Source: Bacteroidota bacterium (GTDB lineage: Bacteria > Bacteroidota > Bacteroidia > Chitinophagales > LD1). From it: DNA of 64,000 nt. A program made the translations under genes and the position numbers. The DNA is taken from NCBI GenBank assembly GCA_947479455.1, contig CANJZE010000001.1, forward strand, positions 173,106-237,105. The letters run 5' to 3'. This document shows positions 22,169 through 38,494 of this stretch, piece by piece; position 1 is the first letter of the stretch; each line of letters opens with the position of its first letter. The notes beneath the pieces were generated by a model that had not been told where the DNA came from, ran no database searches, and saw only the letters and a program-made list of their open reading frames with translations.

Positions 22169-22199
22169 TTTGAAAATCTGAATTGTGATTTTACATTTG
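22169..22199 (+). promoter_or_regulatory. Promoter of the tRNA-Val array
   Basis: TTTG at 22169-22172 and TACATTTG at 22192-22199 are separated by 19 bp, matching the Bacteroidota sigma factor consensus (TTTG-N19-TAnnTTTG). It lies 20 bp upstream of the first truncated tRNA unit, so the whole array is probably one transcript. Confidence 0.75.
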
Positions 22200-22218: not shown

Positions 22219-22499
22219 GGGAGATTAGCTCAGCTGGTTCAGAGCATCCCGATACAGTCGGGAGGGTCAGAGGTAGAAAAGTTCTTTTGTTCTTTGTGAA
22301 AATTAAATATTGGGAGATTAGCTCAGCTGGTTCAGAGCATCCCGATACAGTCGGGAGGGTCAGAGGTAGAAAAGTTCTTTTGTTCTTTGTCGAAAATTAA
22401 ATATTGGGAGATTAGCTCAGCTAGTTCAGAGCATCCCGTTACAATTGGGAGGGTCAGAGGTAGAAAAGTTCTTTTGTTCTTTGTCGAAAATTAAATATT
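22219..22499 (+). repeat. Three tandem truncated tRNA-Val copies with altered anticodon arm
   Basis: Three units begin at 22219, 22312 and 22406 (periods 93 and 94 bp), and the intact tRNA follows at 22500. Each keeps the 5' acceptor strand (gggagat) and a D arm; the D arm matches the intact gene in units 1 and 2 and has one base change in unit 3. The anticodon arm is replaced. In units 1 and 2 it is TCCCGA-tacag-TCGGGA, in unit 3 TCCCG-ttacaat-TGGGA, so the loop would present ACA instead of TAC. After gggtc the T arm and 3' acceptor are lost and replaced by agaggtagaaaag and a T-rich tail (gttcttttgttctttg). Units 1 and 2 are identical except for one inserted base in the tail. They cannot be charged as tRNAs. 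Confidence 0.9.
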
Positions 22500-22574
22500 G
22501 GGAGATTAGCTCAGCTGGTTCAGAGCATCTGCCTTACAAGCAGAGGGTCACAGGTTCGAACCCTGTATCTCCCA
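22500..22574 (+). tRNA. tRNA-Val (TAC)
   Basis: A complete cloverleaf of 75 nt. Acceptor GGGAGAT pairs with ATCTCCC, discriminator A. The anticodon arm is TCTGC-CTTACAA-GCAGA with anticodon TAC (reads GTA). The T arm is ACAGG-TTCGAAC-CCTGT. No CCA is encoded. It is the last of four tandem units and the only functional one. Confidence 0.97.
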
Positions 22575-22576
22575 CT

Positions 22577-22609
22577 AAAACCCTCTTGATTATCAAGGGG
22601 GTTTTTTTT
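22577..22609 (+). terminator. Rho-independent terminator of the tRNA-Val array
   Basis: The arms aaaaccctcttga and tcaagggggtttt form a strong hairpin with a tta loop, followed by a continuing T run. It starts 3 bp after the tRNA. Confidence 0.9.
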
Positions 22610-31651: not shown

Positions 31652-32476
31652 TTACGATTCTAAAAAACTGATGATTTCTTTCAAAAATTCCTGTGGTTTT
31701 TCGGCATGAACCCAATGCCCTGCTCCTTTTATTTCTACCAATTTATTGTTCGGAAACAATTTTTCAATAGAGTCAAAATTTTCTGCGTTGATATAAGAAG
31801 ACTTTTCGCCTTTTATAAAAAGCGTTTCGCCTGCAAATTGTTTTGAAGAAGTAAGTACCGCAGAAATTTTAGAATAGTTCTTGCTTAACGAATCGAGATT
31901 AAAACGCCAATGAAAACCACTTTGACTGTTTTCAGGGCGCGTTAAACTCTTTAGCAAAAACTGAACAGTAGTTTCGTCATTATCCAATTTATCGCGAAGC
32001 ACTTTTTCTACTTCTTCGCGCGAATTTGTGTTTCTCACATCAGCAGCAAAGAGCGCGTTAAACACATCGCTGTGGCGGTCTTCATATTGAACAGGAGCAA
32101 CATCAACCACAATCAATTTCGAAACTTTATCTGAATGCTCCAAGGCAAACTTCATTGCGGCTTTTCCGCCCATGGAATGCCCAATGATGTGCGCTTTTTC
32201 AATTTTCTGTTGCTCAAAAAATTCTAACAAATCGCTCGAAAGCAAATCGTAATTGAACTCATCTGTATGCGGTGAGCGACCGTGGTTTCTCTGGTCGAGA
32301 ATGTAAGTTGCGAGTTGTGAGTTACGAGTTTGTTTCATCCCGCCTGTTTCAGCGGGAGCGGGTTGAACAGCCGCAAGACGTTTTGCAATTGTTTGCCAAT
32401 TGTCTAATGAACCTAATAAGCCATGAAGAATTAGGAGAGGAAATCCTTCACCAAATTTTTTGTAGTTGAGTTGCAT
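31652..32476 (-). CDS. Alpha/beta hydrolase (YbfF-like esterase) with a repeat-derived insertion
   Basis: 274 residues. Oxyanion HGLLGSLDNW near 18-27, nucleophile elbow GHSMGG with Ser 101, and GAGHWVHAEKP with catalytic His near 254; VDVAPVQY follows the family pattern. Between NWQTIAKRLA and YILDQRNHGRS the usual gap of a few residues is replaced by about 24, encoded by an interspersed repeat (32302-32372). Predicted acyl esterase, substrate unknown. 20 bp downstream of the redoxin frame on the same strand, with DUF58 upstream. Confidence 0.88.
   Translation of the reverse strand: MQLNYKKFGEGFPLLILHGLLGSLDNWQTIAKRLAAVQPAPAETGGMKQTRNSQLATYILDQRNHGRSPHTDEFNYDLLSSDLLEFFEQQKIEKAHIIGHSMGGKAAMKFALEHSDKVSKLIVVDVAPVQYEDRHSDVFNALFAADVRNTNSREEVEKVLRDKLDNDETTVQFLLKSLTRPENSQSGFHWRFNLDSLSKNYSKISAVLTSSKQFAGETLFIKGEKSSYINAENFDSIEKLFPNNKLVEIKGAGHWVHAEKPQEFLKEIISFLES
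32302..32372 (-). repeat. Composite interspersed repeat translated inside the hydrolase
   Basis: Read on the minus strand this holds the palindromic words TCCCGC...GCGGGA and the tandem words aactcgtaactcacaactcg. Both word types recur in Bacteroidota intergenic DNA. It is in frame and encodes roughly AVQPAPAETGGMKQTRNS, in an expected loop of the fold. Confidence 0.7.
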
Positions 32477-37886: not shown

Positions 37887-37979
37887 GCGGGACTTGCGGC
37901 TCAGAATGATAACCGCCACCTTGCAGACATCTTTTAAATATTTTTCTTCGAAAAAATATTTCGTTCTTTTTGACATTAT
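37887..37979 (+). pseudogene. Degenerate truncated tRNA-Gly copy
   Basis: Begins with gcggga and keeps gctcag and the ccaccttgc of the anticodon arm in altered spacing, then loses the T arm and 3' acceptor. It is preceded by gttcttttttgacagtat, nearly the same as the gttctttttgacattat before the intact tRNA-Gly at 37980, giving a 93 bp period. This is the same layout as at the tRNA-Val and tRNA-Leu arrays but more decayed. Confidence 0.75.
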
Positions 37980-38052
37980 GCGGGAGTAGCTCAGTTGGTA
38001 GAGCGCCACCTTGCCAAGGTGGAGGTCGCGGGTTCGAGCCTCGTCTCCCGCT
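37980..38052 (+). tRNA. tRNA-Gly (GCC)
   Basis: A complete 73-nt cloverleaf. Acceptor GCGGGAG pairs with CTCCCGC, discriminator T. The anticodon arm is CCACC-TTGCCAA-GGTGG with anticodon GCC (reads GGC/GGT). The T arm contains GGTTCGAGCC. No CCA encoded. Confidence 0.97.
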
Positions 38053-38129
38053 CTATAAAGAGCAGCAGTAGGCAGCAGCAGTCAGCAGTTTTACTGCATC
38101 AGTTGTTGCCTATTGTCTTTTTAGAAGTT

Positions 38130-38399
38130 GCCGTGGTGGTGGAACTGGTAGACACGTCCCGACCTTTAAGTCGGGATGATACTTAAACACTGTGCGGATT
38201 TAATTTTTGTTCTTTTTTTGCCGTGGTGGTGGAATTGGTGGACACGTCCCGACCTTTAAGTCGGGATGATACTTAAACACTGTGCGGATTTAATTTTTGT
38301 TCTTTTTTTGCCGTGGTGGTGGAATTGGTAGACACGTCCCGACCTTTAAGTCGGGATGATACTTAAACACTGTGCGGATTTAATTTTTGTTCTTTTTTT
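38130..38399 (+). repeat. Three tandem truncated tRNA-Leu copies with altered anticodon arm
   Basis: Three units start at 38130, 38220 and 38310, each exactly 90 bp; the intact tRNA is the fourth at 38400. Each keeps the gccgtggtggtgga acceptor strand and D arm. The anticodon arm becomes TCCCGAC-ctttaa-GTCGGGA, a perfect 7-bp stem, in place of the caggA stem. A variable-arm sequence follows (tgatacttaaacactgtgcgg), then the T arm and 3' half are replaced by atttaatttttgttcttttttt. Units differ at only two D-arm positions. The T-rich end could terminate each unit. Confidence 0.9.
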
Positions 38400-38485
38400 G
38401 CCGTGGTGGTGGAATTGGTAGACACGCAGGACTTAAAATCCTGTGATACTTAAATATCGTGCGGGTTCGATTCCCGCCCGCGGTA
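38400..38485 (+). tRNA. tRNA-Leu (TAA)
   Basis: A complete class II tRNA of 86 nt with long variable arm. Acceptor GCCGTGG pairs with CCGCGGT including wobble pairs, discriminator A. The anticodon arm is CAGGA-CTTAAAA-TCCTG with anticodon TAA (reads TTA). The T arm is GCGGG-TTCGATT-CCCGC. Last of four tandem units. Confidence 0.97.
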
Positions 38486-38494
38486 CAAGACAAG

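Follow-up and report, generated by a model that had tools for sequence, protein, structure and literature searches.

Tandem palindrome-marked tRNA halves upstream of tRNA genes in a Bacteroidota genome: probable relics of a homing-type GIY-YIG cassette

The window, meaning the whole 64,000-nucleotide stretch analysed here, belongs to contig 1 of a draft assembly of 70 contigs and 3.76 Mb, and carries a tandem array at its tRNA-Val(TAC) gene. The array consists of three truncated units (22219-22499) and the tRNA gene itself (22500-22575, plus strand), with a start-to-start spacing of 93, 94 and 94 nt, which agrees with the four units and the 93-94 bp period of the original prediction. Only the last of the four is called as a tRNA by ARAGORN and Rfam (72.9 bits). 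Units 1 (22219-22311), 2 (22312-22405) and 3 (22406-22499), all on the plus strand, gave no tRNA or Rfam family in the window (ARAGORN; Rfam at gathering score), and the view that these truncated 5' units are not callable as tRNAs is thereby borne out. Over 94 nt, identity to unit 2 is 88% for unit 1, 96% for unit 3 and 68% for the tRNA unit, and a DNA search of the host genome returned no further full copy of the Val unit.

All three units retain the 5' acceptor strand and the D arm, as had been claimed. The position of the anticodon arm is occupied by TCCCGATACAGTCGGGA in units 1 (22247-22263) and 2 (22340-22356) and by the variant TCCCGTTACAATTGGGA, which ends in TGGGA, in unit 3 (22434-22450). 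A remnant of the variable region and the 5' strand of the T-stem (GGGTCAGAGGTAG) follow the palindrome, and an AT-rich leader with GTTCTTT makes up the 3' part of the unit. The units were rightly described as truncated. The predicted loop ACA is obtained in one register; the cognate anticodon TAC lies within the palindrome. What had been taken for an isolated swap of the anticodon arm is its replacement by a recurrent TCCCG..CGGGA palindrome.

A promoter-like site on the plus strand precedes unit 1 (22169-22199), formed by TTTG at 22169-22172, 19 nt and TACATTTG at 22192-22199, which we take to be of the Bacteroidota type on the TAnnTTTG consensus. No TAnnTTTG box other than the one it contains, at -308, was found in the 320 nt before tRNA-Val. 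The idea of one promoter for the whole array therefore finds a single promoter-like box, but a sigma-70 scan, with one site at this position, does not rise above shuffled sequence (1 versus a shuffle mean of 1.0). On the same strand a terminator-like hairpin, predicted from the sequence, follows the tRNA (22577-22605).

The Val array is not a one-off, as similar fragments lie upstream of the two other tRNA genes of the window, and the impression that the array is peculiar to tRNA-Val is not supported, given units of the same type at other tRNAs of the genome. An eroded 5' unit of tRNA-Gly(GCC) (37887-37926, plus strand), in which the similarity stops within the anticodon loop (...CCACCTTGC), precedes the functional gene (37980-38053, plus strand; identified by tRNA call). 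The Gly units of the host genome, G003 and G013 share this point of loss inside the anticodon loop, and no such unit end was seen in the stretch before the tRNA-Gly of G008. The Leu array (38130-38399) comprises three units of 90 bp that are built like the Val units, all on the plus strand: unit 1 at 38130-38219 with its palindrome (TCCCGACCTTTAAGTCGGGA) at 38157-38176, unit 2 at 38220-38309 with 38247-38266, and unit 3 at 38310-38399 with 38337-38356. The functional tRNA-Leu(TAA), identified by tRNA call, follows at 38400-38486 (plus strand).

An alignment scan covering 30 of the 36 Rfam tRNA matches of the host genome passed 5' copies at four tRNAs (Lys TTT, Lys CTT, Val and Leu TAA) and 3' copies at two (Thr TGT and Arg TCT), eroded copies such as those of Gly and Ser lying below the pass mark. 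A TAnnTTTG box was found at -15 to -26 in 8 of 30 host tRNAs, and none of these eight passed the 5' copy scan. For the fragment-preceded Lys, Lys(CTT), Gly(GCC) and Thr(TGT) genes the box lies at -113 to -148, and tRNA-Leu(TAA) has none within 320 nt upstream.

The palindrome links these fragments. Against a chance expectation of 0.15, the window has six matches to TCCCGN{3,14}CGGGA: one in each of Val units 1 and 2, one in each Leu unit and one elsewhere. The host genome has 121, versus 11 for the reversed pattern. Among the host matches listed some are at tRNAs, and seven others that were read are not. A TCCCG..CGGGA hairpin away from tRNAs, TCCCGCCTGTTTCAGCGGGA, is located at window positions 32338-32357, and several host hairpins resembling it have GTTTCA in front. 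In most loci read, the palindrome takes the position of the anticodon arm. All five named Asp loci have it in the T-loop, and three Ala loci, which together form one branch of the nuclease tree described below, have it in the D-loop; in a deviating Asp copy of G008 it lies behind the anticodon loop.

Of 58 distinct cases, 22 contain the cognate anticodon within the palindrome, where shuffling gives 8.9 (0 of 20000 shuffles as high). The input comprised 45 named and 29 hand-read decoys with related sequences still included; 13 named loci were dropped by hand (palindrome in the T- or D-loop or elsewhere, or an ARAGORN-called decoy), and loci without a palindrome were also excluded. Furthermore, the first and last inner bases of the palindrome are complementary in 55/55 distinct sequences, with four kinds of pair. 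Given the cognate anticodon and the complementary inner bases, the palindrome arms look rebuilt around the tRNA's own loop. At the tRNA-Met of G003 the 5' and 3' halves carry one identical palindrome; among the 23 loci with palindromes on both sides, the two are identical in three and reverse complementary in one, so that the halves either drift or arise separately. At one tRNA-Val locus (L197) the loops of the 5' and 3' palindromes are mutually reverse complementary, as if the hairpin had been flipped, and a tRNA-Ser locus of G007 (L134) has a longer REP-like palindrome inside the T-loop, common to the 5' and 3' halves.

Comparison with congeners provides empty and filled sites. Of 13 congener Val loci read, 12 are without units, as are 11 of 12 Gly-Leu loci with respect to the Leu unit; G002 has one unit at each. 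The most similar flanks are those of G007, G016 and G017, all without Val units, and G007 and G017 are also without Leu units. Their unit-free tRNA-Val is preceded by the same promoter region as the window array, and their leader is continued in the window by Val unit 1, which thus represents the 5' tRNA half continuous with the congener-shared leader. Presence and absence among relatives is accordingly seen at the congener Val and Leu loci, and insertion at a specific target is reflected in the isotype clades below. The original prediction had offered the absence of units from close relatives as grounds for its rejection. Such absence is indeed the rule at these two loci, but other tRNAs and other families have units of this design. 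The copy is thus recent, and the feature is not refuted. The suggested search of relatives for tandem 5' fragments was productive: two-unit 5' arrays precede the tRNA-Val of G068, where a GIY-YIG frame comes right after the tRNA, and the tRNA-Thr of G284. Two 3' units accompany the tRNA-Thr of G382, at which no GIY-YIG frame was found by motif.

In G002, of the same genus, the 5' half, the tRNA, a GIY-YIG gene and the 3' half are all present at tRNA-Leu(TAA). The GIY-YIG match begins 16 nt behind the tRNA, its frame runs into a D arm, and the 3' half carries TCCCGACTTTAAGTCGGGA, one base shorter than the Leu palindrome of the window. Native and carried copies were compared at the window Val and Leu loci, by leader continuity and by one genus-variable base. 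Leu unit 1 has GGAACTGG, like G007 and G017, and Leu units 2 and 3 and the working tRNA-Leu have GGAATTGG; this one base, variable in the genus, is suggestive of a working 5' half of tRNA-Leu that may have come with the insert.

The nuclease genes beside palindrome-marked tRNA halves are tiny GIY-YIG genes of ~82 codons. The tRNA-linked nucleases match PF01541 above cut-off, which places them in a homing-family group of nucleases, and five aligned proteins share 27 invariant columns, including the Y, YYVG, R and E positions. For three tRNA-linked proteins NCBIfam gave no family above cut-off, and in two of the three a weak match, below threshold, to endonucleases of group I introns. The genes are under purifying selection, with dN/dS of 0.01-0.27 in the 13 gene pairs, out of 41, that could be scored, being neither saturated nor near-identical; several of the 13 are close to saturation. 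In the host genome, all three small GIY-YIG genes sit directly behind a same-strand tRNA (Asp, Leu CAG and Arg TCT), the one at Asp being interrupted by an internal stop; the other two GIY-YIG matches fall in a 626 aa frame, which by its length is UvrC-like, and in a 405 aa frame. No GIY-YIG match was found on the contig of the window.

To describe the neighbourhood, we took as named loci the best 80 of 273 matches to a profile of the five tRNA-linked proteins. In 67 of these 80 a same-strand tRNA lies no more than 600 nt upstream, a share biased upward because the profile query was built from tRNA-linked copies. Of the 13 loci without a tRNA call, 10 have <440 nt of contig upstream and three have 1500 nt. 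The gap between tRNA and nuclease gene is 25-75 nt in 57 of the 67, and in three the nearest upstream tRNA call itself bears a palindrome. In a less biased sample of 59 small GIY-YIG genes, part of the small PF01541 matches in 30 genomes of the family, 21 have a tRNA within 600 nt upstream and 24 have either a tRNA or a 3' decoy, leaving 38 with no upstream tRNA call.

Behind the nuclease gene a 3' copy of the same tRNA is present in 59 of the 67 loci. In 52 of the 59 it has a palindrome whose stem is 6 or longer, and in 51 one of the CCCG..CGGG kind. With called tRNA-like stretches masked, 3' copies were found for 48/66 linked tRNAs versus 8/34 other tRNAs of the same loci, seven of these eight being weak (scores 24-28). 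The last 28 bases of the tRNA are repeated exactly in 23/67 of the 3' copies, and 33/67 score at or above the level chosen to allow about two differences. The nuclease frame often ends 5 bases ahead of CCCG, at the TAG of the D-arm sequence. A 5' copy precedes the tRNA in 26 of 66 loci, in 24 of the 26 with CCCG..CGGG. The full form thus reads, in order: 5' half with palindrome; leader, intact tRNA and nuclease gene; palindrome with 3' half. At two further loci, L129 and L131 (in G024 and G022), GIY-YIG genes stand in tandem, separated by palindrome-marked 3' halves of tRNAs, and no intact tRNA was called in the stretch read.

The nuclease clades follow tRNA isotype. Mapped onto the nuclease tree, the target isotype changes 16 times; shuffling gave a mean of 43.6, with none of 200 shuffles as low. 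The tree has 82 columns and 85 rows, with 46 of its 81 inner branches open; 6 of the 80 named proteins were omitted as too short, and the isotypes of L148, L153 and L190 were relabelled by hand. All 25 Lys rows, from several families, fall on one side of a branch with support 92, and records from Ignavibacteriota and Calditrichota are among the Asp rows. Palindrome-marked tRNA halves, 5' or 3', recur at many isotypes in Bacteroidota, often near GIY-YIG genes. A narrow pattern of the palindrome in tRNA context was found in 5 of 30 family genomes and 16 of 395 phylum-sampled genomes, the host genome being counted in both, and its reversed control gave no match in either set.

We consider the Val array to be an amplified relic of a homing-type mobile cassette that carries a spare tRNA and a GIY-YIG gene, with a probability of roughly 0.68. 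Cleavage by the nuclease and mobility of the element are what we infer from this anatomy. The cassette would consist of leader, intact tRNA and ~82-codon GIY-YIG gene, inserted in a resident tRNA gene of the same isotype. The nuclease would cut the tRNA gene, and repair would copy the cassette in. The resident tRNA would thereby be split, mostly at the anticodon arm, its 5' half staying by the promoter and its 3' half by the old downstream flank, and each displaced half would bear the TCCCG..CGGGA palindrome instead of the arm. Recombination between the repeated 3' halves might then remove the nuclease gene and leave a 5' half before a working tRNA, the state in which we would place the window Val and Leu loci. 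Unequal exchange, or amplification provoked by the nuclease, could multiply the unit of 93-94 bp (Val) or 90 bp (Leu), and the working tRNA would stay intact, since a cell that lost it would be harmed or killed. In the least certain step, the palindrome would mark the altered target arm and may render the remnant uncuttable. Template switching that corrects imperfect to perfect palindromes would account for the second arm. An expanding selfish repeat, one of the options listed in the original prediction, is the kind of reading that is now favoured.

Several points speak against the cassette. The intact tRNA would still hold the supposed target, and the protein appears to have little beyond the nuclease domain, with hardly room for a recognition domain. 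There is no nuclease gene at the window Val or Leu array, and 38 of the 59 small family genes stand without an upstream tRNA call. The same palindrome is found on both sides in only 3 of 23 loci, the 3' copy is exact in only 23 of 67, and a Lys unit is conserved. This unit differs between G000 and G007 at 1 of 87 bases, versus 14 of 200 in the adjacent 200 nt (Fisher p 0.04). Within the latter, the nearest 70 nt including the promoter differ at 2/70 and the next 130 nt at 12/130; differences amount to 55/400 far upstream and 17/301 downstream. The low divergence could reflect constraint on the unit.

The alternatives explain parts of these observations. Plain tandem duplication of the tRNA with its leader, followed by decay, would make the GIY-YIG genes unrelated settlers at tRNA ends. 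It accommodates units that are tandem and near-identical and orphan arrays without a nuclease gene, but the array-internal spacers are unlike the leader ahead of unit 1 that congeners share, and we disfavour simple duplication for this reason; the recurrence of TCCCG..CGGGA at unrelated tRNAs and in other phyla also speaks against it. In a control run, moreover, 5' copies were commoner at nuclease-linked tRNAs (25/65) than at other tRNAs (6/35). Four of these six are Lys genes of the same element kind, in two loci where ARAGORN took a decoy as the linked tRNA; the other two are Pro genes without a nuclease gene, which fit duplication. On balance we regard such an origin as unlikely. A role as functional RNA, in which co-transcribed 5' hairpins would titrate an anticodon nuclease or a modification or processing enzyme, or attenuate transcription of the tRNA, is in our judgement quite unlikely. 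Units that differ in presence between close species do not suggest it, and the 3' halves behind the nuclease, which share the palindrome, would require a separate RNA role. The placement of the units between the promoter-like site and the tRNA, the complementary inner end bases, the frequent retention of the cognate anticodon and the good conservation of the Lys unit between two species are what such a role would lead one to expect. Folding does not decide, since the z-scores of two Val units (-1.4 and -2.0) and a Leu unit (-2.4) resemble that of tRNA-Val (-2.1). For the decoy, processing-guide and regulator roles listed in the original prediction the analysis yielded no positive evidence; the conserved Lys unit and the tRNA-like folding are the reasons for which we keep this rival.

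tRNA anticodon arms are common integrase targets, and the halves might be attachment-site remnants of integrase-type elements or satellites with the anticodon arm as core site. Hybrid arms, part tRNA and part foreign, would then be expected, but in the loci read both palindrome arms are new sequence by eye, and the GIY-YIG frame takes up the ~300 nt that separate the tRNA from the 3' half; this origin is very improbable. Chance or artefact as the source of the design is ruled out by its recurrence in other genomes. Near-identical 94 bp repeats can be miscounted in a 70-contig draft, but the units differ among themselves, and other genomes also have arrays built in this way. An assembly artefact is therefore scarcely credible as an explanation of the array, and doubt about the assembly is limited to the copy number of the units.

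Known systems resemble the proposed cassette in part. The E. coli rtT at tyrT consists of tandem partial tRNA repeats that are 3' ends, lie downstream and come without a nuclease gene, whereas the units here are 5' halves, lie upstream and carry a palindrome; the suggestion that rtT is the closest analogy is not supported. REP palindromes and RAYT transposases tie small palindromes to one endonuclease-like gene family, but here the palindrome lies inside tRNA copies. By sequence, the closest solved relatives of the nuclease are UPF0213/Slx1-like (PDB 1ywl, E 2.3e-9; 1zg2, E 1.5e-8), and the SLX1 structure 7cq2 gives an E of 0.005. We know of no tie of UPF0213/Slx1-like proteins to tRNA genes, and these names give no function for the tRNA-linked clade.

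SegB of phages T4 and T6 is a free-standing GIY-YIG homing endonuclease at tRNA genes, which cuts a tRNA-containing locus and in phage T6 causes the tandem amplification of a segment with a tRNA gene in it (PMC13096335). A GIY-YIG nuclease beside tRNA genes and tandem amplification are thus common to both. SegB is tied to tRNAs in many phages, and no isotype preference is reported for it (PMC13096335); unlike the phage enzyme so described, the nucleases here have ~82 codons, are chromosomal and cluster by isotype. Split tRNA halves and palindromes, present here, are absent from the parts of the SegB description that were compared (PMC13096335). Mobile ORFs of fungal mitochondria that carry a replacement gene end, in Allomyces atp6 and Glomus atp6, atp9, cox2 and nad3, provide a second parallel: an endonuclease gene and a copy of the downstream part rebuild the target while the displaced native end remains, the endonucleases being LAGLIDADG except for that of atp9, which is GIY-YIG (PMC3630166). 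The 3' copies in 59/67 and 5' copies in 26/66 tRNA-linked loci may be comparable. The fungal ORFs sit in mitochondrial protein genes and, in the parts of the source compared, are without palindromic marking, 5' halves or tandem arrays (PMC3630166).

It seems probable to us that the elements form an undescribed, isotype-specific family of selfish elements that split tRNA genes on bacterial chromosomes. A minimal GIY-YIG nuclease would swap the resident tRNA for a carried copy, tag each displaced half by a palindrome formed around the cognate anticodon loop, and leave amplifying arrays of halves. As the carried copy would replace the resident tRNA, a working essential tRNA could be of mobile origin. 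Records that fit come from Bacteroidota, Ignavibacteriota and Calditrichota, and possibly Cloacimonadota. A literature search whose scope excluded preprints and most subscription papers brought up phage SegB and the mitochondrial mobile ORFs, and among the papers listed none describes a chromosomal bacterial GIY-YIG element that splits tRNA genes. For bacterial chromosomes the elements thus seem to be undescribed; target-rebuilding homing elements as such are already known, and SegB was compared by its description. If the proposal holds, essential tRNA genes of many Bacteroidota would repeatedly have been cut, replaced and flanked by their own former halves, in a natural system of tRNA gene replacement, and the cassettes may rank among the smallest homing elements known. 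It would also account for truncated tRNAs, for GIY-YIG genes that end in tRNA sequence and for false tRNA annotations, and the recurrent palindrome would allow direct and cheap probing of recognition by an orphan GIY-YIG protein.

Small GIY-YIG genes of a second kind have no tRNA and are flanked by direct or inverted repeats (L096, L097, L101, L102, L135, L137-L142 and L145). The flanking repeats exceed all shuffles in 12 of these 12 loci (L097: 53 versus 24), compared with two of six long-frame controls, which do so by one point; possibly these loci represent a REP-like palindrome system. A tRNA-Glu of G000 (C49:5542-5614) lies on a 5.6 kb contig whose flank is by eye much richer in G+C than other host sequence, possibly a contaminant contig. 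A palindrome-bearing pseudo-tRNA-Lys of G000 (C2:82157-82230) is scored as a tRNA by Rfam (39.5 bits), and other palindrome remnants are called tRNA-Stop or unknown by ARAGORN. Annotation may therefore contain false tRNAs.
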